A program made the translations under genes and the position numbers. 64,000 bases of DNA from Parietichytrium sp. I65-24A (taxonomy: Eukaryota; Sar; Bigyra; Thraustochytrida; Thraustochytriidae): positions 468,362 to 532,361 of the forward strand of contig BLSF01000027.1 of NCBI GenBank assembly GCA_012862575.1. The letters run 5' to 3'. The notes under the pieces are model-generated. The model did no database searches. It was not told the DNA's origin and saw nothing but the letters and a program-made list of their open reading frames with translations. How positions within the stretch are numbered: the first letter of the stretch is position 1; each line of letters starts with the position of its first letter. Below, piece by piece: positions 25,584 to 63,471 of this stretch.

Positions 25584-27107
25584 ATGAAGTGCGGGTTTGG
25601 ATTGATGGCCCTGGCCTTGGGCGCCAGCCAAGTTCTTGTCGTAAACAGCGAAGTTCTCGTGGGATTCAGGAGCTTTGATACGTATCCAGGATATACTGGA
25701 GATGTGTCCTTGGAGGTGTTGGATAAAGTATTGTTTACCCAAACGTGTCCGCCCGAGTTTGATGCATACACGACGCTGGCGTGCGACTTATACGAGGGGG
25801 AGGGCACTATCAACGTCACTCGGGGTTCACTCGATTCTGCGACATTTACAATTCATGGAGGAACAAGTTGCGACAACGTCGGGGCGGCTATCGTGAAGCT
25901 TGACTTTACAGCGGACTTCTCCTCCAACTCGTCATATACTTTTGACGGAACAAGTGATGGCGGAGAAGACCTTGTAGGAAAAGTGATTGTCGTCTACGAC
26001 GGTCAAGAGACTCCAATTGCCTGCACCAAATTGCAAATCTGGGGAGACGAAACCGTTGATGTCTTGGCAGGATATTTCAGTGCCCAGAACGGATACGAGC
26101 TGGGCGACTCCTTCCCCGCTCAAGGCACCGTTCAGGCGTATGCAGGCAGCGAATCAGCTGCTCCAAGTGGGTATGTAAGCCTGAACACATCCAATGTTTT
26201 GAGCTACAATTTGTCGGATCTGACCGCTTCCGGCGAGCACGGTATTCACATCCACGAAGGGGTGAGCTGTGATGATGCCTTGGGGCACTATTACAATGAA
26301 GATGGAGACAATACAGATCCTTGGAGCACCACCGCTACCGCAGATGGAGATGGTAACGCCGCCGGTTCTATCGATGTCTCGGCGCTGGAAAACGCATACT
26401 CGTTCGCGGAAAACGTTAACCATGCCGTCGTCATTCACGACTCCACGTCAACGAGGATTGGTTGCGCAACCTTGGGCCGCACCGATGTTTCCAAATTGAT
26501 TGGATACGCTTATGCCCTACTGGATTCAGATTTGGGAGGGTTGCAACTTTCAGGTTGGTTGGATAACGTGGAAAGCGTCATCAACGCTCCTGTGAATGTG
26601 GCGCTTCACTCTGGTACCTCATGTGACGCGCCAGGGGATGTCTTTCCACCATCAGCTGGTGGGGACGCAGACGCCTTCTGGGAACAATCAGGCCTTGTTC
26701 GCGTCACAAATCAGAGTACGGCCGAAGGTTCGGAATACTTTTCCGTTAGCTTCTCCATTCTCTTGGACTATAGTCCTTCTGATATTGAAGACAGTGTCCT
26801 CATTTACAAGGACAACGCTGGCAGGCCGATCGCTTGTGCAAAGCTTTCAAAGAGCTTGGAGCCAGAAACCCGCGCTCCGACCAAGGCCCCAACGAACTCT
26901 CCAACGAAAGTTCCTGGCACAGCTCCAACGGACTCTCCAACGGAAGCTTCTGGCACCCCAGCTCCGTCGACCTCGACCAACTTGAACGCGACTTCAGCCC
27001 CAACCAATGAAGAGCTGGATTCCACTTTCGCGCCAACGGCTTCAGGAAGCCGCAACTTGCTCTCGGTGATGGCTCCTCTTCTCATTGCGGCTGCCATCGC
27101 TGCCTAG
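25584..27107 (+). CDS. Cu-only SOD-like repeat protein with one intact copper site (paralogue A)
   Basis: 507 residues: signal peptide (1-22), three SOD-like beta domains (about 24-152, 165-298, 305-422), a Pro/Thr/Ser-rich stalk (428-490) and a hydrophobic C-terminal tail typical of a GPI signal. The middle domain has the four copper-ligand histidines of Cu/Zn SOD (H222, H224, H235, H285), the disulfide pair C229/C294 and the active-site Arg (R291), but lacks the zinc loop. That is the Cu-only SOD pattern. Domain 1 keeps only H91 and domain 3 only H342 of the ligands; Tyr (138, 408) replaces the last His in both, so they cannot bind copper in this way. Expected at the cell surface in superoxide removal or copper binding. 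CHRD domains are a superficially similar alternative, but the Cys pair and the His spacing favour SOD. Confidence 0.82.
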   Translation: MKCGFGLMALALGASQVLVVNSEVLVGFRSFDTYPGYTGDVSLEVLDKVLFTQTCPPEFDAYTTLACDLYEGEGTINVTRGSLDSATFTIHGGTSCDNVGAAIVKLDFTADFSSNSSYTFDGTSDGGEDLVGKVIVVYDGQETPIACTKLQIWGDETVDVLAGYFSAQNGYELGDSFPAQGTVQAYAGSESAAPSGYVSLNTSNVLSYNLSDLTASGEHGIHIHEGVSCDDALGHYYNEDGDNTDPWSTTATADGDGNAAGSIDVSALENAYSFAENVNHAVVIHDSTSTRIGCATLGRTDVSKLIGYAYALLDSDLGGLQLSGWLDNVESVINAPVNVALHSGTSCDAPGDVFPPSAGGDADAFWEQSGLVRVTNQSTAEGSEYFSVSFSILLDYSPSDIEDSVLIYKDNAGRPIACAKLSKSLEPETRAPTKAPTNSPTKVPGTAPTDSPTEASGTPAPSTSTNLNATSAPTNEELDSTFAPTASGSRNLLSVMAPLLIAAAIAA

Positions 27108-29826: not shown

Positions 29827-31221
29827 ATGAAGTCTGTAGCTGTCTTGGCGGCCGCCGCTGCTGTGCTCGAAAGCGTGGCAGCTGAAAATACGCTTGTGGT
29901 CAAGTCGCTCAGCGCTTACCCAGGCTACGAGGGAGACTTGAACGTCGCTATTGTGGACCCAATTGAGATCACCTCGGAATCAGGCAGCGTGAGCCTCTCT
30001 GGAAAGTTGAGTGGACTGGAGACGGGGACACAAGGTGGAATTCACATTCACGTCGGGGCGTCCTGCGAGAACGCTGGAGGCCACTATTGGGAAGGCACGA
30101 ACGCAGATCCATGGACTTCCAACTGGCAGAGTGACGCTGACGGAAAGTCGGATGTACAAGTATCCGTGAATGATGTTGGCACAGAACAATTTGCTGGCCG
30201 CACTCTGGTGATCCATAGTTCAACTGGCGCTCGTGTTTCCTGCGGGGTTATCGAGATCGTGTCTACCAGTGACTACTCTTCTGGCGTTTTGGACTCGTAC
30301 TATAATGTGACCTTCGACAGCTCTTACCCGGCACAAGGCAAGATGGGGGCATACTTTGACTTTGATGGTGCAGCTCCTGCCGGAACTGTGACTCTCGAAA
30401 CCACCAACACCTTGAAGTATGATCTGACTGGTCTCAGCCCTGGTGAGAACCACGGATTGCACATTCACGAAGGGCTTTCTTGCTCCGAAGCTGCGGGCGC
30501 GCATTACTTTACTGGTGATACCGATCCATGGAGCACTGTTGTCGCTGCTGACGAGAACGGAACTGCCACCGGCAGCATCAATGTGACCGCCCTCGTTGGC
30601 GCCTACCCTTTTGCTGATAACGTGAACCACGCCGTGGTCGTCCACGCTCCCAACTCCACAAAAATTGGATGCGCTCTTCTCGTTCGCGTTGATTTGGACA
30701 AAATTCAGGGCTTTGTAGTTGCCAACGGCAATGACACCAGCGTTACTGTTTCCGGTTGGGTTGAGGGCGCTCAGGGCACCCCAGACGCAAAGATGGGCGC
30801 ACACGTTCACGCTGGAACAAGTTGCGAGAATGCCGGTAACCATTTGAAGGACAGCGAAGGAGTTGATCCATGGCTTTCTACCTATGCTACCGTCAACATT
30901 ACCGAGAGAGACTCTGGGGATGTTTCGAGACTCGCCTTCTCGTTCACGGTGGATACGATTGGGTTTCCAGAAGTAGCAGATAAAACCTTCGTGATTCACG
31001 ACACCGCCGGCCGTCGCGTCGCCTGTGCTGATCTTGCACTTACCTCTGCTACAACCATGTCTCCAACACCGGCTCCAGATACAAACACAACCGTGTCTCC
31101 AACACCGGCTCCAGACACAAACACAACCAATGCTCCAACGAACTCTCCTAGTTCTGCGGCAACATCAGTCTCCTCCCTTTTCGCAGTGATTTCGGCTGCT
31201 ATCATTGCTCGCTTGCAATAG
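29827..31221 (+). CDS. Cu-only SOD-like repeat protein with three intact copper sites (paralogue B)
   Basis: 464 residues from the ATG at 29827 (MKSVAVLAAA). Signal peptide (1-20), three SOD-like domains, a short stalk with two copies of SPTPAPDTNTT, and a hydrophobic GPI-type tail. All four Cu ligands are present in each domain: D1 H73, H75, H86, H130; D2 H212, H214, H226, H273; D3 H327, H329, H339, H391. The disulfide pairs are C80/C139, C219/C282 and C333/C400. The active-site Arg is present in D1 (R136) and D3 (R397) but is Lys279 in D2. Zinc ligands and the electrostatic loop are missing, as in fungal Cu-only SODs and the copper-only SOD repeat proteins of animals. Paralogue of the gene 2.7 kb upstream. 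Probably a surface enzyme against superoxide; activity is inferred. Confidence 0.85.
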   Translation: MKSVAVLAAAAAVLESVAAENTLVVKSLSAYPGYEGDLNVAIVDPIEITSESGSVSLSGKLSGLETGTQGGIHIHVGASCENAGGHYWEGTNADPWTSNWQSDADGKSDVQVSVNDVGTEQFAGRTLVIHSSTGARVSCGVIEIVSTSDYSSGVLDSYYNVTFDSSYPAQGKMGAYFDFDGAAPAGTVTLETTNTLKYDLTGLSPGENHGLHIHEGLSCSEAAGAHYFTGDTDPWSTVVAADENGTATGSINVTALVGAYPFADNVNHAVVVHAPNSTKIGCALLVRVDLDKIQGFVVANGNDTSVTVSGWVEGAQGTPDAKMGAHVHAGTSCENAGNHLKDSEGVDPWLSTYATVNITERDSGDVSRLAFSFTVDTIGFPEVADKTFVIHDTAGRRVACADLALTSATTMSPTPAPDTNTTVSPTPAPDTNTTNAPTNSPSSAATSVSSLFAVISAAIIARLQ

Positions 31222-36308: not shown

Positions 36309-36730
36309 GAACAATAAGCTCCGATTTTAGCTGTACCACCAGTCGCCTTTTTTCTTTCTTCTTACTTGTACCAGCCACAGTGCGCCTTTCAAAATTTTCT
36401 TTGTGCTTGTGAGCTGCGAGCTTTCTAATTGCCATTGCCACTTTACCTTTGCGATTTGCCTGCACAGTGACATAGACTTGTAAATAATCGAGCCGGATGG
36501 AGATGTGGTCGTGAGTAGCAGTAAGATTTAGCGGGTCTGAGCCCATCTTCACCAGCAGCAAGAGTTCTTGTGTCTCGCATCGGTTCGCTGTCAGCATGGA
36601 AGAGCGATTGAGAAGCGAGACATGGCGATCAAAGAGCCATGCTCATCTTTCGAAGCAGAAAAGAGAGTCTATGAAATAACTGCGGCTTTGAATGGCATTA
36701 TTTTACAAACTATATTCAATTAATCTTTCT

Positions 36731-37000
36731 CTAACAAGAGCCACTTGTTTCCGAGAGGGTCGTGCCACATTGGTTGCACTTCTGCACTTTGTCCTTGCAT
36801 GAGTCCATGACGAACGGGAGCCAGCAGAGAGGAAAGAAAAAGAACAGCAGGAGAATGAATGCAATAAGTGCGCAGCTTCCGATCTTGGTTTCCACATGGC
36901 TATTCGCGTGGCTGCATGCATATTGCTGCGGCGCCTGTTGTGCCTGAGGAACTTGCGCGGTGCCAGCAGCCTCCTGCGCTTTGTAGACGTTGTTGGACAT
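36731..37000 (-). CDS. LITAF-like small membrane protein, copy 1
   Basis: 89 residues. A Gln/Pro/Ala-rich N-terminus (8-27) precedes a LITAF-type domain: knuckle-like C29-S-H31 and H35, a 22-residue hydrophobic stretch (42-64, ALIAFILLLFFFFPLCWLPF), then MDSCKDKVQKC75NQC78GTTL. LITAF/SIMPLE domains insert shallowly in late endosomal or lysosomal membranes, with the two Cys pairs forming one zinc site on the cytosolic face. Here the second pair is standard, but the first CxxC is replaced by CxH. The start is the ATG conserved in all six copies. An in-frame upstream ATG (137 residues) exists in copies 1-3 but its frame is broken in 4-6, so it is probably 5' UTR. Confidence 0.85.
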   Translation of the reverse strand: MSNNVYKAQEAAGTAQVPQAQQAPQQYACSHANSHVETKIGSCALIAFILLLFFFFPLCWLPFVMDSCKDKVQKCNQCGTTLSETSGSC

Positions 37001-37632
37001 TCTGGGGATTGAGCTAAAAGTTGAAGATCTGTAGATTGGACGGTCGAAGATTGCTTGTTTTGCTCTTCGAAGTTTGAGTTTGGGGTCTGGAGATTGATGA
37101 AGTTTCGAGCATGGTACTTTCGTTTCAGACATAACAGCGTCCACTTTGATGGCATACTTTGCGCCAAAGCGAATCAGTGCGCTTCGTAACCGTTTCGACG
37201 AGCGCTATCATCTGAATAAGCAGTACGTTTTTCTGAACCTGGTAAATGGCAATTCGGCATCACTGGAAAGTTTCAGTTGGAGTAGGTTTCAGCGACTTGG
37301 AACTATAATCTCGAGGACTATAGTGCACACCATAAATCGAGTAGCTTAGTGCTAATTTCCAGTAGACAGCACTCTGCCAGTACTGTACTGAGACTGCTGT
37401 TTTAATGTTGTCCTGGTGGTGCGAGACATCTTGAAAAGAAAGCATAAATAAATCATTGAGGCGCATGAAGGCACCGCGCAAGAAGCATCACATGATGGAA
37501 AATAGAGTGAAAACTTTCAAGAATGTTTTAAGAATTGAGAATGCTCGCAAAAAATCTGATGATTCGAAGAATTATGCAATTATCATGTGTTCAATAAACT
37601 ATTACAACGCTATCATATTTCCGTGATAACTT

Positions 37633-37902
37633 TTAGCAAGAGCCACTTGTTTCCGAGAGCGTCATGCCGCATTGGTTGCACTTCTGCACCTTGTCCTTGC
37701 ATGAGTCCATGACGAATGGAAGCCAGCAGAGAGGGAAGAAAAAGAACAGCAGAAGAATGAATGCGATCAGTGCGCAGCTTCCGATCTTGGTTTCCACATG
37801 GCTATTCGCGTGGCTGCACGCATATTGCTGCGGCGCCTGTTGCGCCTGAGGAACTTGCGCGGTGCCAGCAGCCTCCTGCGCTTTGTAGACGTTGTTGGAC
37901 AT
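37633..37902 (-). CDS. LITAF-like small membrane protein, copy 2
   Basis: Same 89-residue protein with Met instead of Thr at position 80 (NQCGMTL). At DNA level it shares GAGCGTCATGCC with copy 4, and GCGATCAGTGCG and the CACCTTGTCC variant with copy 5. Confidence 0.84.
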   Translation of the reverse strand: MSNNVYKAQEAAGTAQVPQAQQAPQQYACSHANSHVETKIGSCALIAFILLLFFFFPLCWLPFVMDSCKDKVQKCNQCGMTLSETSGSC

Positions 37903-38522
37903 TCTGGTGATCGAGTTAAAAGTTGAAGATCTGTAATTGGACGGTCGAAGATTTGCTTGTCTTGCTTTTCGAGGTTTGAGTTGGGGGTCTGGAGATTGAT
38001 GAAGTTTCGAGCATGGCACTTTCGTTTCAGACACAACAGCGTCCACTTTGATGGCATACTTTGTGCCAAAGCGAATCAGTGCGCTTCGTGACCGTTTCGA
38101 CGAGCGCCATCATCTGAATAAGCAGTACGTTTTTCTGAACCTGGAAAATGGCAATTCGGCATCACTGGAAAGTTTCAGTTGGAGTAGGTTTCAGCGACTT
38201 GGGACTATAATCTCGAGGACCATAGTGCATACCAGTCATCGGGTACTACTACTCTACAGTACTCTGTAATGTACTAGTGAAATTATTTCTGTTCTGCTTC
38301 CCGTGTTGCATGTGCAAGATATGAAAAGAAAGCATCGATGAATCATCGAGGCCACGGGGCACCGCGCAAGGAGTATCACATGATGAGAAACAGAGTGTAC
38401 ACTTTCAAGAATTTGTTGAGAACCGAGAATGCTCGCAAAAAAAACTTATGATTCGAAGAATTAAGCAATTATCATGTGTTGAATAAACTATTTACAAAGC
38501 TATCATATTTTCGTGATAATTT

Positions 38523-38792
38523 TTAGCAAGAGCCACTTGTTTCCGAGAGGGTCGTGCCGCATTGGTTGCACTTCTGCACTTTGTCCTTGCATGAGTCCAT
38601 GACGAACGGGAGCCAGCAGAGAGGAAAGAAAAAGAACAGCAGGAGAATGAATGCAATAAGTGCGCAGCTTCCGATCTTGGTTTCCACATGGCTATTCGCG
38701 TGGCTGCACGCATATTGCTGCGGCGCCTGTTGCGCCTGAGGAACTTGCGCGGTGCCAGCAGCCTCCTGCGCTTTGTAGACGTTGTTGGACAT
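38523..38792 (-). CDS. LITAF-like small membrane protein, copy 3
   Basis: Protein identical to copy 1. The upstream flank (CTGGGGATTGAGCTAAAAG) is also of the copy 1 type, although copy 2 lies between them. Confidence 0.84.
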   Translation of the reverse strand: MSNNVYKAQEAAGTAQVPQAQQAPQQYACSHANSHVETKIGSCALIAFILLLFFFFPLCWLPFVMDSCKDKVQKCNQCGTTLSETSGSC

Positions 38793-39404
38793 TCTGGGGA
38801 TTGAGCTAAAAGTTGAAGATCTGTAGAATGGACGGTTGAAGATTGCTTGTTTTGCTCTTCGAAGTTTGAGTTTGGGGTCTGGAGATTGATGACGTTTCGA
38901 GCATGGTACTTTCGTTTCAGACATAACAGCGTCCACTTTGATGGCATACTTTGCGCCAAAGTGAATCAGTGCGCTTCGTGAATATTTTGACGAGCGCTAT
39001 CTTCTGAATAAGCAGTACGTTTCTCTGAACCTGGAAAATTGCAATTCGGCATCACTGGAAAGTTTTCAGTATGAGTAGGTTTCAGCGACTTGGAACTATA
39101 ATCTCGAGGACCATAGTGCACACCAGTAATCGTATCCTATTACTTTAAAGTACTCTACACTGTACCAGTAGTGAAATCACTTCTGCTTTCCGGGTTGTGG
39201 ACGGTGCGGGAAATGAAAGAGAGCATCGATAAATAATTGAGGCGCATGGACGCACCACGCGAGGAGCATCACATGGTGAAAAAACAGTGTACACTTTGGA
39301 GAAGGTTTTAAGAACCAGAATGTTTCCAAAAAAGCTGATGATTCTAAGAATTATACAATTATCATGTGTTCAATAAACCATTCACAACCCTATCGTGATA
39401 TCTT

Positions 39405-39674
39405 TTAGCAAGAGCCACTTGTTTCCGAGAGCGTCATGCCGCATTGATTGCATCTTTGCACTTTGTCCTTGCATGAGTCCATGACGAATGGAAGCCAGCA
39501 GAGAGGAAAGAAAAAGAACAGCAGGAGAATGAATGCAATAAGTGCGCAGCTTCCGATCTTGGTTTCCACATGGCTATTCGCGTGGCTGCACGCATATTGC
39601 TGTGGCGCCTGTTGCGCCTGAGGAACTTGCGCGGTGCCAGAAGCCTCCTGCGCTTTGTAGACGTTGTTGGACAT
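39405..39674 (-). CDS. LITAF-like small membrane protein, copy 4
   Basis: Differs from copy 1 by A12S, K74R and T80M. The upstream in-frame extension seen in copies 1-3 is frameshifted here while the 89-residue frame is intact, which supports the short start. The nucleotide pattern is a mosaic of copy 2-type and copy 1/3-type blocks. Confidence 0.84.
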   Translation of the reverse strand: MSNNVYKAQEASGTAQVPQAQQAPQQYACSHANSHVETKIGSCALIAFILLLFFFFPLCWLPFVMDSCKDKVQRCNQCGMTLSETSGSC

Positions 39675-40320
39675 TCTGGTGATCGAGTTAAAAGTTCAAG
39701 ATCTGTAGATTGGACGGTCGAAGATTTGCTTGTCTTGCTTTTCGAGGTTTGAGTTGGGGGTCTGGAGATTGATGAAGTTTCGAGCATGGTACTTTCGTTT
39801 CAGTCACAACAGCGTTCGCTTTGATGGCATACTTTGTGCCAAAGTGAATCAGTGCGCTTCGTGAATATTTTGACGAGCGCTATCTTCTGAATAAGCAGTA
39901 CGTTTCTCTGAACCTGGAAAATGGCAATTCGGCATCACTGGAAAGTTTTCAGTACGAGTAGATTTCAGCGACTTGGAACTATAATCTCGAGGACGATAGT
40001 GCACACCATAAATCGAGTAGCTTAGTGCTAATTTCCAGTAGACAGCACTCTGCCAGTACTGTACTGAAACTACTGTTTACCGGTATGAATAATGTTGTCC
40101 TGGTGGTGCGCGACATCTTGAAAAGAAAGCATGGATAAATCATTGAGGCGCATGAAGGCACCGCGCAAGAAGCATCACATGATGGAAAATAGAATGAAAA
40201 CTTTCAAGAATGTTTTAAGAACTGAGAATGCTCGCAAAAAATCTGACGATTCGAAGAATTATGCAATTATCATGTGTTGAATAAACTATTTACAACGCTA
40301 TCATATTTCTGTGATAACTT

Positions 40321-40590
40321 TTAGCAAGAGCCACTTGTTTCCGAGAGGGTCGTGCCGCATTGGTTGCACTTCTGCACCTTGTCCTTGCATGAGTCCATGA
40401 CGAATGGAAGCCAGCAGAGAGGAAAGAAAAAGAACAGCAGGAGAATGAATGCGATCAGTGCGCAGCTTCCGATCTTGGTTTCCACATGGCTATTCGCGTG
40501 GCTGCACGCATATTGCTGCGGCGCCTGTTGTGCCTGAGGGACTTGCGCGGCGCCAGCAGCCTCTTGTGCTTTGTAGACGTTGTTGGACAT
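40321..40590 (-). CDS. LITAF-like small membrane protein, copy 5
   Basis: Differs from copy 1 only by T14A. Its 5' flank (CATTCTATGTATCGAGTC on the plus strand) is shared with the inverted copy 6 and with no other copy. It forms a divergent, head-to-head pair with copy 6, with start codons 497 bp apart. Confidence 0.84.
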   Translation of the reverse strand: MSNNVYKAQEAAGAAQVPQAQQAPQQYACSHANSHVETKIGSCALIAFILLLFFFFPLCWLPFVMDSCKDKVQKCNQCGTTLSETSGSC

Positions 40591-41087
40591 TCTATGTATC
40601 GAGTCAAACTTTCAAGAGAGGTAGTTTACACGATCGAAGTTTGCTGTTGTGCTTTTGAAGTTTGAGTTTGGGGTTTGGAGATTGGAGAAGTTCCAAGCAT
40701 GGTGTTCTCAATCCAGTCACAACAACGTAATTGATGTCACACTTTACGTCAAAGCGAATCAGTGCGCCTCGCTTCCTCGACAATGTTGCTGGCTTTATGT
40801 TTCTGAATAAGCAGTGATTCACAAAGTTTCAGTAGTAACGTTTCAGCAACTTTGGGCTACAATCTCGGTACCAATTAATGTAGAGCATTTGTAAGAATCC
40901 AGGGTAGCGCACTGATTCGCTTTAAAACGGAAAGTATGCCATCCAAATGGACGCTGTTGTGACTGAAACGAAAGCACCATGCTCGGAACTTCTTCAAATC
41001 CAAATCCCAAACTCAAACTTCAAAAGCACAACAGCAAACTTCGATCGTGTAAACTACCTCTCTTGAAAGTTTGACTCGATACATAGA

Positions 41088-41357
41088 ATGTCCAACAACG
41101 TCTACAAAGCACAAGAGGCTGCTGGCGCCGCGCAAGTCCCTCAGGCACAACAGGCGCCGCAGCAATATGCGTGCAGCCACGCGAATAGCCATGTGGAAAC
41201 CAAGATCGGAAGCTGCGCACTGATCGCATTCATTCTCCTGCTGTTCTTTTTCTTTCCTCTCTGCTGGCTTCCATTCGTCATGGACTCATGCAAGGACAAG
41301 GTGCAGAGATGCAACCAATGCGGCACGACCCTCTCGGAAACAAGTGGCTCTTGTTAG
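41088..41357 (+). CDS. LITAF-like small membrane protein, copy 6 (inverted)
   Basis: Carries T14A and K74R relative to copy 1. Its 3' flank (TTGTTAGAGAGAGATTAATT and on to CCATTCAAAGCC) matches that of copy 1, not copy 5, although its 5' flank matches copy 5. It is therefore a composite of array-end sequences. Confidence 0.85.
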   Translation: MSNNVYKAQEAAGAAQVPQAQQAPQQYACSHANSHVETKIGSCALIAFILLLFFFFPLCWLPFVMDSCKDKVQRCNQCGTTLSETSGSC

Positions 41358-41406
41358 AGAGAGATTAATTGAATCTAGTTTGTAAAATAATGCCATTCAA
41401 AGCCGA

Positions 41407-41507
41407 ACCTCGCAAGTCTGAACAAACATCGTTGATTGAAGTGAATATCTCTCTCGCTCTCTCCAAGTCACGAGGGTCAGAGTCAAGTTGAAAGAAGTCG
41501 ATTTTGG
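41407..41507. repeat. Dispersed inverted repeat, right arm
   Basis: Reverse complement of 32531-32640. It abuts the end of the LITAF array homology within a few bases. Confidence 0.88.
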
Positions 41508-41653
41508 GGGTAGATTGAAAATAATTTGTAAAAATGTTGTATAAAAAAGTGCCTTTTTGGATTGGANAGTCAAGTTGAAAGAAGTCGATTTTGGGGGTAG
41601 ATTGAAAATAATTTGTAAAAATGTTGTATAAAAAAGTGCCTTTTTGGATTGGA
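41481..41653. repeat. Perfect 86-bp duplication around a single N (probable assembly artefact)
   Basis: Positions 41481-41566 and 41568-41653 are identical and are separated only by N at 41567. Confidence 0.93.
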
Positions 41654-59711: not shown

Positions 59712-61019
59712 TCATGGTGTCAAGTCGTAGCAAGCGCAAATCCTAGACGAATAGTAAAATGTGAGGGCCAAGACGCCACCGATTCCTTGCACCAAAGCGT
59801 TTCTTGACAGGAGTTTAAAGTCAAGGGAGAGGTGATCTGTTTTGTACGCCCTTGCTTTCGCAATGTCGGTCAGTGTTTCACTTGTAGTTGCAAACGCTGC
59901 GCGCCACATGAGCGTCCCGCTGAACGACGACTGCAGGGATGTCATCAGTGCAGCGAGAAGAAGCGCGCGCTTCTCGCCTATTTCGTCGCTGATTGTCAGT
60001 TCATTCCATAAATTGCTAACGAGTTCGTCGCCCTCGAAATGCTTGCTCACCACGGAGAGAACCTCACTCATGGTACTCGACCTCTCCAAATTTCTACTGG
60101 CCCTGAAATCCTCTTCCGGCGCAATTTTGGCGTTTTGCATCGAATCCCAAAAATATGCAAATGCAAAAGCGCTAATTGCTTCAACAATGCCTTGCATAAG
60201 TACTACCGAGATAAAGCTTCCATGCGATTGTATTTGAAACTGAAGCATGAAGCCTGGCAACGCAAACGCTGTGACGAGCCCAGTGTTATTATTGAGAAAC
60301 ACATCCACACGACTCTTCTTCACCATGTTATACCTGAGCTGATAGCGCAGGAAGATTGCCAGGCCAGGATAAATTATGCCCAATACTATAATCTCTTGCA
60401 CCCCGGCGATGTAGTTCCTTACAGAAAGGAGAACAAAACCATTGATTGTCCAAGACGCAACAATGACCCCAATTGACGACGCGGCTCTCTTCAACAAAGG
60501 TATTGCCTTCGAGCGTTTCCCAAACTTTGCAATCTTGAAAAGAGCTTGTATCCCGTACTCAAGGGCTGTACACACGCAGAGTGTGAAATGAATGGAGATC
60601 GAGTATCCCGAGGCAAGCAAAGCATAAAGCAGCGCAGTTGAAAGGAGTGCAAATATCAACGCCATTCCAAGAACGAGTCTTTGCTTGGTTTGCAGCATGT
60701 TGTGCAAAAACAACAAAATATAAAAATCCCGGTAGAGCAAGGCGGAGTCAAATCCTCTAAACGATTCCTCGTGCGCAGATGTGTCATTGAGGCACAAGAA
60801 CTCCGACAAGCCTTGCGCTTTCAAGTTATCCCGGTGAGAAACACCAAGAATCAGCTGCTCTTCGCACGTGGTGATAAAAACTGCAAAACTACCGAGGACA
60901 AGAACTGTTGGGATTGCTCCTGCTGCCAAGCACGTCAGCTGCGCCTGGAAGACAATCTCTGCACGGATGGCGTTCATCCTTTGCGACTTTCGCACACCAC
61001 TCCGCTTTGCGACGGCCAT
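59712..61019 (-). CDS. Polytopic membrane protein of an unrecognised family, paralogue 1
   Basis: 435 residues with about eight to nine hydrophobic segments, including residues near 28-50, 105-160 (two to three), 180-205, 208-228, 245-290 and a final one at 410-430. A hydrophilic loop near 300-400 contains LTISDEIGEKRALLLAALM. No transporter, channel or GPCR signature is recognisable. It shares collinear blocks with the gene at 62146-63471: CLNDTSAHEESFRGFDSALL, YPGLAIFLRYQLRYNMV, NNNTGLVTAFALPGFMLQF. Function unknown. Confidence 0.85.
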   Translation of the reverse strand: MAVAKRSGVRKSQRMNAIRAEIVFQAQLTCLAAGAIPTVLVLGSFAVFITTCEEQLILGVSHRDNLKAQGLSEFLCLNDTSAHEESFRGFDSALLYRDFYILLFLHNMLQTKQRLVLGMALIFALLSTALLYALLASGYSISIHFTLCVCTALEYGIQALFKIAKFGKRSKAIPLLKRAASSIGVIVASWTINGFVLLSVRNYIAGVQEIIVLGIIYPGLAIFLRYQLRYNMVKKSRVDVFLNNNTGLVTAFALPGFMLQFQIQSHGSFISVVLMQGIVEAISAFAFAYFWDSMQNAKIAPEEDFRASRNLERSSTMSEVLSVVSKHFEGDELVSNLWNELTISDEIGEKRALLLAALMTSLQSSFSGTLMWRAAFATTSETLTDIAKARAYKTDHLSLDFKLLSRNALVQGIGGVLALTFYYSSRICACYDLTP

Positions 61020-62145: not shown

Positions 62146-63471
62146 TCAAAAGTAACAAGTTGTGAAGAAAGAGACGTAGAAAACCACAACTGCCATGACA
62201 GCGCCAACTACTTGCACCAAAGTGCACTTTGAGAGCAGCGGAGTTAGTTGGGCCTGATGGCTCACCCGGTAAGCCTTGCTCTTTGCCATGTCGGAGAGTG
62301 TCTCACAGAGAAGTGCTAGCGGAAGACGGCTGGCTATCTTTCTGTCTGCATCAAAATGAATCCGCGAGAGCATGGCGGCCAAGATCAAGGCACGTTTCTC
62401 TCCAATCTCGTCGCTGATGGTAAGCTCACTCCAGAGCGTCGCTTCCAAAATGCTGTCGCCCTCGAATTTGCGAGCGACATTTTGGATCACGTTTGAAAGG
62501 GGCGCGACAGCATTTGTCGAAGAGAAAGCAGCATTTGTCGAAGAGAAAGACTGGTCTGTGCTGTCACTGTGCCCGACTTTACTTTCGCCGAGACTAATCT
62601 CCCAGACTTTAGCGTATATAAAGGCGCCAACTGCTTCGAACGCCAGCTGAAGAAACACTACGAGAACAAAGGCAGAGAGCCCGTCCGTCAAAAATTGCAA
62701 CACAAATCCAGGGAAGGTAAACAGGGTCACAAGATTTGTGTTGTTATTGATAAGAAGGTTTGCCCCCCTTGTCAAGTGCTTGCGATTCTGTACCATGGAA
62801 TACCTTAGACGGTATCGAAATAGGAGAGCAAGGAGTGGATACGCGATCCCCACGCAAATAACCCGCACTTGCTGTGAGAACCGAGGGTTTGTCTGAAAAG
62901 ATACGAAAGCCGTGATTGCCCAAGTCGATAGTACAATGTTGAGGATCGCAACACCCGCGGCGATGACTCTTCGAATTTTAAAAGCCCTCCGATACTTCAA
63001 GAGTTTTTGTAATATCTGGAATGCATACACTAAAACACTGAAGACCACTGGTGACCAAAGTGGGTAAAAGCCATTCGAACTCAGCGCACAGATCAAGTAA
63101 ACCAAAAAGAAACCCACTCCGCTGAAACACAGGGAAAGAAGCGCTGCACTCCAACTATCCGCCTGCAATGCCGAGTATATAAAGATGAGAACCGAGGCGT
63201 GCTTTGTCATGAGCGCAACGTCGAGCCCTTTAAACCGCTCCGCATATGCGGACGTTTGATTCAGACAGATTGCACTCGCCGTGGTGGACTCCACGAAGGC
63301 ATATTTGTGATTGTGGCCGGTGAGATAATCCTCCTCCCACAAGAACATGTAGACGAGGGCTGCAAAGAACAAAGCGATGAGCGGCGTCGGCGCGAGCGCA
63401 AGCGCAGTCAGCCTGGCTTGGAATCCCACCTCGGCGGCGCACCTCCGGAGCATTGTTCGTGCCCACGCCAT
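62146..63471 (-). CDS. Polytopic membrane protein of an unrecognised family, paralogue 2
   Basis: 441 residues with the same architecture as paralogue 1: a first membrane helix after FQARLTALALAPTP, a luminal-looking segment with CLNQTSAYAERFKGLDVALM, YPLLALLFRYRLRYSMV, NNNTNLVTLFTFPGFVLQF, and LTISDEIGEKRALILAAML before the final helix at the C-terminus. A 21-bp tandem duplication (62510-62550) adds a second FSSTNAA unit in the hydrophilic loop. Asn-x-Ser/Thr in the segment after helix 1 suggests glycosylation. Function unknown. Same strand as paralogue 1, 1.1 kb apart, so a tandem duplication. Confidence 0.86.
   Translation of the reverse strand: MAWARTMLRRCAAEVGFQARLTALALAPTPLIALFFAALVYMFLWEEDYLTGHNHKYAFVESTTASAICLNQTSAYAERFKGLDVALMTKHASVLIFIYSALQADSWSAALLSLCFSGVGFFLVYLICALSSNGFYPLWSPVVFSVLVYAFQILQKLLKYRRAFKIRRVIAAGVAILNIVLSTWAITAFVSFQTNPRFSQQVRVICVGIAYPLLALLFRYRLRYSMVQNRKHLTRGANLLINNNTNLVTLFTFPGFVLQFLTDGLSAFVLVVFLQLAFEAVGAFIYAKVWEISLGESKVGHSDSTDQSFSSTNAAFSSTNAVAPLSNVIQNVARKFEGDSILEATLWSELTISDEIGEKRALILAAMLSRIHFDADRKIASRLPLALLCETLSDMAKSKAYRVSHQAQLTPLLSKCTLVQVVGAVMAVVVFYVSFFTTCYF

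Follow-up and report, generated by a model that had tools for sequence, protein, structure and literature searches.

In the literature cited here, human LITAF and CDIP1-type proteins are described as monotopic, zinc-stabilized, endosomal and supportive of membrane curvature (PMC5095921, PMC8353527); on its own, the human LITAF domain marks tubules with a median of ~54 nm, and recombinant LITAF yields smaller liposomes (PMC8353527). The zinc ligands in a model of human LITAF are C96, C99, C148 and C151, and both cysteine pairs are called strictly conserved across a broad eukaryotic alignment (PMC5142333); human LITAF changed at C96 or C148 is lost from membranes (PMC5095921). The family has undergone multiple expansions, especially in animals (PMC5142333), and the moth Helicoverpa armigera carries 13 LITAF genes on four chromosomes, up to five of them on one (PMC13113599). 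Here we describe array A, a tandem array of LITAF-domain genes in the thraustochytrid Parietichytrium sp. I65-24A. It lies in a 64,000-nucleotide stretch (the window) that corresponds to positions 468362-532361 of contig C27 (BLSF01000027.1), in an assembly totaling 42.5 Mb on 172 contigs. Fragments of small-subunit rRNA in this assembly match the eukaryotic family, the rRNA matches being incomplete; a primer sequence that appears in three papers and is regarded as labyrinthulomycete-specific is absent from the assembly and, at up to three mismatches, from locus L031. Array A is accompanied in this genome by at least one further tandem array and by a fragment of a probable third. Our favored reading, which we hold to be somewhat better than an even prospect, is that these are tandem arrays of a nearly bare, membrane-curving LITAF domain, subject to purifying selection and gene conversion and carried at high dose. 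An earlier note on the same DNA, made from its letters alone, regarded LITAF proteins as usually single genes or small dispersed families; this is too narrow in light of the expansions cited above, and because such expansions are already known, the surprise offered by the locus is moderate.

Array A comprises six intact 89-codon LITAF-domain frames between window positions 36731 and 41357, the first five on the minus strand and the sixth on the plus strand, all defined from open reading frames (ORFs) and alignment. These are A1 (36731..37000, minus; PF10601 E=1.2e-13), A2 (37633..37902, minus; E=2.1e-13), A3 (38523..38792, minus; found by the genome search), whose protein is identical to that of A1, A4 (39405..39674, minus; E=1.6e-13), A5 (40321..40590, minus; found by the genome search), which is the left member of a head-to-head palindrome, and the inverted A6 (41088..41357, plus; E=9.7e-14), its right member. 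Each encodes 89 amino acids. Coordinates give spacers of 632, 620, 612, 646 and 497 bp, and the first five copies are spaced 902, 890, 882 and 916 bp from start to start. The earlier note's central observation, a six-copy LITAF array with its last copy inverted, is thus borne out by the ORFs, the alignment and the PF10601 matches, and re-alignment returned exactly the variable residues it had listed (12, 14, 74 and 80). Its description of the copies as near-identical holds for the protein but less so for the DNA, in which 24 sites vary among the six coding sequences, with 4-16 differences per pair. The spacers of about 600 bp are, as it had also claimed, more divergent and rearranged: pairwise differences within the array are 1-6% in coding sequence and 4-59% in downstream flanks, and spacer blocks have been shuffled, such that 37403-37603 and 40090-40290 are 97% alike. 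The account was correct, but incomplete, as a second six-copy array and many paralogues lie outside the window.

All four array A copies scanned against Pfam match PF10601 (zf-LITAF-like), at 50.7-51.7 bits and E-values from 9.7e-14 to 2.1e-13. A genome-wide search with the same profile, whose match counts are lower bounds, recovered all six, upholding the LITAF identity first proposed for them, among at least 31 matches that all exceed the curated cut-off of 23.8 bits; 24 of the 31 sit in six clusters of two or more. Array B, with six further copies, all on the minus strand (C27:386875-391697), lies ~113 kb from array A, and between the two arrays stand four sister genes of 82-83 amino acids (M1-M4), arranged as two head-to-head pairs (C27:430202-435194). 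Other groups occur on contig C29 (three copies), contig C45 (three) and contig C36 (two, ~10 kb apart), and contigs C41, C62, C16, C25, C19 and C130 carry one match each. A 13th array-type copy, on contig C136, is 5'-truncated and has Arg for the conserved Trp of CWLPF; it may be a pseudogene. Because this copy and its spacer are 79-86% like array units across ~700 bp, and the contig ends ~460 bp past the truncated copy, the assembly process probably interrupted a third array at this point. Past the array ends, no similarity between arrays A and B was found (6.5 kb around A against 9.9 kb around B, at an E-value of 1e-20 or better). We rejected a segmental duplication carrying neighboring genes, as the matches listed for the compared stretches all fall inside the arrays. 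The earlier note had also remarked on the neighboring PEPCK gene; we find no evidence for its relevance, array B sharing no flank with array A in the compared stretches.

Elsewhere in the family, two LITAF groups of three copies each (locus L017, 1832-4435; locus L018, 1991-5390) have C-P-C-G knuckles and a C-terminal CCC, and the paralogue at L018 3418-3903 carries a run of 36 glutamines ahead of its domain. Two members of the trio on contig C29 encode identical proteins, from which that of the third departs at two residues.

Purifying selection conserves the array protein strongly. We estimated synonymous (dS) and nonsynonymous (dN) divergence by the Nei-Gojobori method, with our own script, for all 66 pairs of the 12 copies in arrays A and B. 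Mean dS is 0.206 (range 0.036-0.392) and mean dN 0.0104, a ratio of means of 0.051, in agreement with the selection on the protein suggested previously. Across the 12 copies, 33 coding sites vary, 26 of them synonymously in every copy, and pairs differ at 4-22 nucleotides. The low ratio, the predominance of synonymous sites and the mean dS together indicate that the proteins are alike mainly because purifying selection has kept them so, rather than because the copies are young. The recent amplification proposed in the earlier note is not supported at such dS values: most copies are not young, and only some pairs, such as A5/A6 (dS 0.036), are young or recently converted. Mean dS is nearly equal within arrays (0.196) and between them (0.214).

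In the assembled sequence the copies are mosaics and do not follow a single tree. Pairwise differences among the 12 are 1-8% in coding sequence and 4-61% in downstream flanks; across the 330 bp upstream, ten copies differ from one another by 0-18% and from A5 or A6 by 35-43%, and A5 differs from A6 by 30%. An exact match of 363 bp joins A1 (36942..37304, minus strand) to B4 (C27:389837-390199), spanning 59 bp of coding sequence and 304 bp upstream, and adding the next 85 bp gives 448 identities in 449 bp between genes 113 kb apart. Further exact matches between the arrays link A3 with B4 (253 bp) and A5 with B6 (213 bp). Segment trees place B4 nearest to A1 upstream (0.972), and nearest to A4 in the coding sequence (CDS; 0.964) and downstream (0.930). 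With 10 units, 84 of the 224 variable columns fall in the A1-B4 run, whose global p of 0.0007 is the floor of 1,500 permutations; the run test with 12 units also gives 0.0007. A PHI-type statistic, computed with a script of ours, has p values of 0.0035 (10 units) and 0.0005 (12 units). Such mosaics fit the kind left by nonallelic gene conversion or unequal exchange, both within and between arrays. The mosaic copies therefore support the repeated homogenization put forward in the earlier note, although the assembly may have mixed up the arrays.

Inverted arrangements recur among these genes. The A5/A6 palindrome has arms of 358 nt with 319 nt between them: the left arm (40322..40679) holds the coding sequence of A5 and 89 bp upstream, and is 99% complementary to the right arm (40999..41356), which contains A6. 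Both arms end within the stop codon. Five inverted repeats of at least 100 nt are among the matches listed for the window, all inside array A. The M1/M2 and M3/M4 pairs also form palindromes (281 nt at 95% and 477 nt at 98%, respectively), and no inverted repeat of at least 100 nt was found in the contig C29 and C45 groups. Beyond the stop codons, the 48-bp 3' flank of A1 (36683..36730, minus strand) is an inverted match to that of A6 (41358-41405), and A2-A5 carry another 3' flank.

The best conserved upstream block, of 14 columns, is CACTGATTCGCTTT, which starts 174-180 bp before the ATG in all 12 copies with at most one mismatch; in A1 it occupies 166-179 bp before the ATG (37166..37179, minus strand; C27:505527-505540). 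It is retained in A5 and A6 although their upstream regions differ by at least 35% from the others. Exact occurrences number 11 in 42.5 Mb, namely the six B copies, A1, A2, A5, A6 and the array end on contig C136, and A3 and A4 carry the block with one mismatch; a backwards control pattern occurs nowhere in the genome. At up to two mismatches the block is absent from the 11 other LITAF-paralogue loci scanned. The block may act as a promoter element or may simply reflect common ancestry.

The array proteins depart from described LITAF domains in the first zinc knuckle. Among the 31 matches, this knuckle reads C-x-C in 12 and C-x-H-x3-H in 18 (arrays A and B, M1-M4, and the copies on contigs C136 and C16), the match on contig C25 having C-x-H but lacking the second His. 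In a 64-column tree the 18 group together (support 100/98), and the placement of the contig C25 match is uncertain. Within the array protein the second cysteine pair (C75/C78) is present, whereas of the usual first pair C29 alone is left, close to H31 and H35. Since C29 aligns with the second Cys of the C-x-C forms, and Tyr, Gln or His stands two places earlier in the position of the first, one cysteine ligand is gone; the alignment suggests that H31 or H35 may replace it. Residues C29, H31, H35, C75 and C78 are retained in all 18 members, including the protein from contig C16, which is 61% identical to A6. Inspection of the translation places a hydrophobic stretch between the knuckles at residues 42-65, which fits the ~22-residue anchor of the family. 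The motifs PPxY and P[ST]AP are absent from all 30 family proteins scanned (all but the truncated contig C136 copy); an N-terminal Y-x-A-[QK] occurs in 27 of the 30 and a C-terminal cysteine in 26, with the start codons of the paralogues chosen by hand and introns not considered. An AlphaFold model from six near-identical rows was uninformative, with a mean predicted local distance difference test (pLDDT) score of 56.7 and a helix at 39-78 in an otherwise poor model. Among solved structures no LITAF relative was found, the seven matches (E 0.019 to 0.59) being receptor entries that we take as chance hydrophobic matches.

Taken together with the family background, these features allow a proposal for what the arrays may do. 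The 89-residue product would be an almost bare SIMPLE/LITAF domain, with a Gln/Ala-rich tail of ~26 residues, zinc-ribbon halves around a hydrophobic anchor of ~24 residues, and a C-terminal cysteine; C75 and C78 would bind zinc together with C29 and either H31 or H35, which would stand in for the customary first cysteine pair. The protein is predicted to sit monotopically on the cytosolic faces of endosomal or recycling membranes, where it could support high curvature (tubules) much as the isolated human LITAF domain does. A role in membrane trafficking is a fair inference from the family and, because the array protein lies so close to a bare LITAF domain, our best guess by analogy is that it supports curvature on endosomal or recycling membranes. 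If such proteins act by number, many copies would give dosage, and conversion would keep the product uniform across them. The selection for dosage raised in the earlier note is accordingly plausible, but codon usage lends it weak support, the bias being modest. A bolder version, which we regard as unlikely, would see an abundant membrane-shaping protein with a bare domain and a rebuilt Cys/His knuckle, possibly coating a large tubular membrane system; the at least three arrays encoding it would have a promoter element of their own and would trade sequence across more than 100 kb, as histone or chorion clusters do.

Several results weigh against the favored reading of an abundant protein from gene arrays homogenized by conversion. 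The codon adaptation index (CAI) is 0.44 for the 12 copies, compared with a mean of 0.35 (maximum 0.441) for 18 window genes; the six genes of the reference set (actin, tubulin and PEPCK) score 0.59-0.77, and the array value is attained in 4.7% of simulated codings. So modest a bias argues weakly for high expression. Tests confined to coding sequence are likewise weak (PHI-type p 0.013; none of the 66 pairs passes correction, the lowest p being 0.002), and it is mostly the flanks that support exchange. The proximal upstream regions have, moreover, diverged about as much as synonymous sites, which implies that the coding part has not been specially homogenized. Finally, an assembler that mixed reads of the two arrays could also produce a mosaic pattern between them. 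The only N in the window, at 41567, stands 210 bp beyond A6 between exact 86-bp copies (41481-41566 and 41568-41653) and is probably an unmerged join of two overlapping contig ends; this join, and the ending of contig C136 inside an array unit, indicate that the repeats troubled assembly.

The alternative that survives best, though we judge it unlikely, is a plain birth-and-death history of tandem duplication constrained by purifying selection, in which array B arose long ago as a block copy of array A and the two have exchanged no sequence since. Birth-and-death duplication under constraint is common among gene families; strong constraint alone would explain the identity of the proteins, and the similarity just mentioned between upstream and synonymous divergence, which concerns the ten ordinary copies, is as this history predicts. 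It is harder to reconcile with the different nearest relatives of the B4 segments, with 363 bp identical between arrays when every other copy differs from A1 by at least 5% upstream, and with the outcome of the PHI-type and run tests. We give rather less credence to a paralogue of divergent function, in which the change from Cys to His marks the loss of zinc binding and a simple membrane peptide was amplified for other uses (for example in stress, or as a lipid-body coat). The altered first knuckle in 18 of 31 matches and the uniform absence of PPxY and P[ST]AP would suit such a history; the retention of all five Cys and His positions throughout the 18, however, is what a retained metal site should leave, and a dN/dS of 0.05 also speaks against it. 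Less probable still is a partial assembly artefact, in which collapsed or chimeric repeats gave a wrong copy number and produced the mosaicism, and perhaps also the inversion of the last copy: the duplication around the N and the ending of contig C136 within an array unit point that way, but the 12 copies differ by 4-22 coding nucleotides per pair and have distinct spacers, the flanks of arrays A and B differ, the palindrome members A5 and A6 differ at four coding sites, and the join falls to one side of the whole palindrome, at least 210 bp from either arm. The likelihoods of these alternatives overlap, since a fault in the assembly is compatible with the others. An array of pseudogenes is rejected for the 12 copies on their dN/dS of 0.05.

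A viral origin was also considered and rejected: two peptide patterns run against viral contigs returned 47 stretches and no relative, a narrow scan that constitutes weak evidence. One peptide pattern run against prokaryote contigs returned 57 stretches and again no relative, an absence that, in so narrow a scan, is similarly weak evidence.

Other features of the sequences examined may merit attention in their own right. Multi-pass membrane proteins of ~435-460 amino acids, alike by eye, are encoded at window positions 59712-61019 and 62146-63471, both near the contig end, and beside array B (locus L009, 1479-2858); these are possibly another clustered family. A tandem pair at window positions 25584-27107 and 29827-31221, also alike by eye, encodes secreted-looking proteins with Pro/Thr-rich tails and repeated segments that we take to be CHRD-like. 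Contig C66 holds one continuous reading frame of 5,583 codons (~8.5-22.5 kb) that matches parts of the PfaA model seven times, below the cut-off of that model, and perhaps encodes a very large fatty-acid or polyketide synthase; the PfaA search yielded nothing above the cut-off.

The feature described above is real and of a known kind; its unusual traits are the exchange between arrays, the recurrent palindromes and the changed zinc knuckle. Our literature search, which covered few subscription journals and was little aimed at the knuckle, returned no protist LITAF array and no C-x-H LITAF knuckle among the matches listed, and does not show that none exists. Given that the cysteine pairs are called strictly conserved (PMC5142333) and that human LITAF with one of them altered no longer stays on membranes (PMC5095921), the Cys-to-His subfamily is informative on the ligands, and constitutes a natural test of which of them LITAF needs. 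The arrays would also allow conversion from one cluster to another to be studied in a compact setting; apart from the knuckle and this conversion, the locus represents an ordinary gene-family expansion.

With LITAF/SIMPLE proteins (PF10601; human LITAF, CDIP1), as described in PMC5142333 and PMC5095921, the array proteins share a C-terminal domain of two knuckles, here putatively metal-binding, around a hydrophobic anchor. They differ in having C-x-H-x3-H in place of CxxC in the first knuckle, a tail of only ~26 residues, and at least 12 near-identical copies, and they lack the PPxY and PT/SAP motifs of the N-terminal proline-rich region found in LITAF/CDIP1-type trafficking proteins. The moth Helicoverpa armigera likewise has an expanded LITAF family, in which a short form without PPxY exists, but its proteins average 36.87% identity and no duplicated sequence is reported among them (PMC13113599), whereas the copies described here are near-identical and mosaic. 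The nearly identical inverted arms, presumably a product of arm-to-arm conversion, recall the palindromic gene pairs that gene conversion keeps similar on sex chromosomes (PMC3403216); the arms here, however, are short (281-477 nt), and matches extend also between arrays 113 kb apart.

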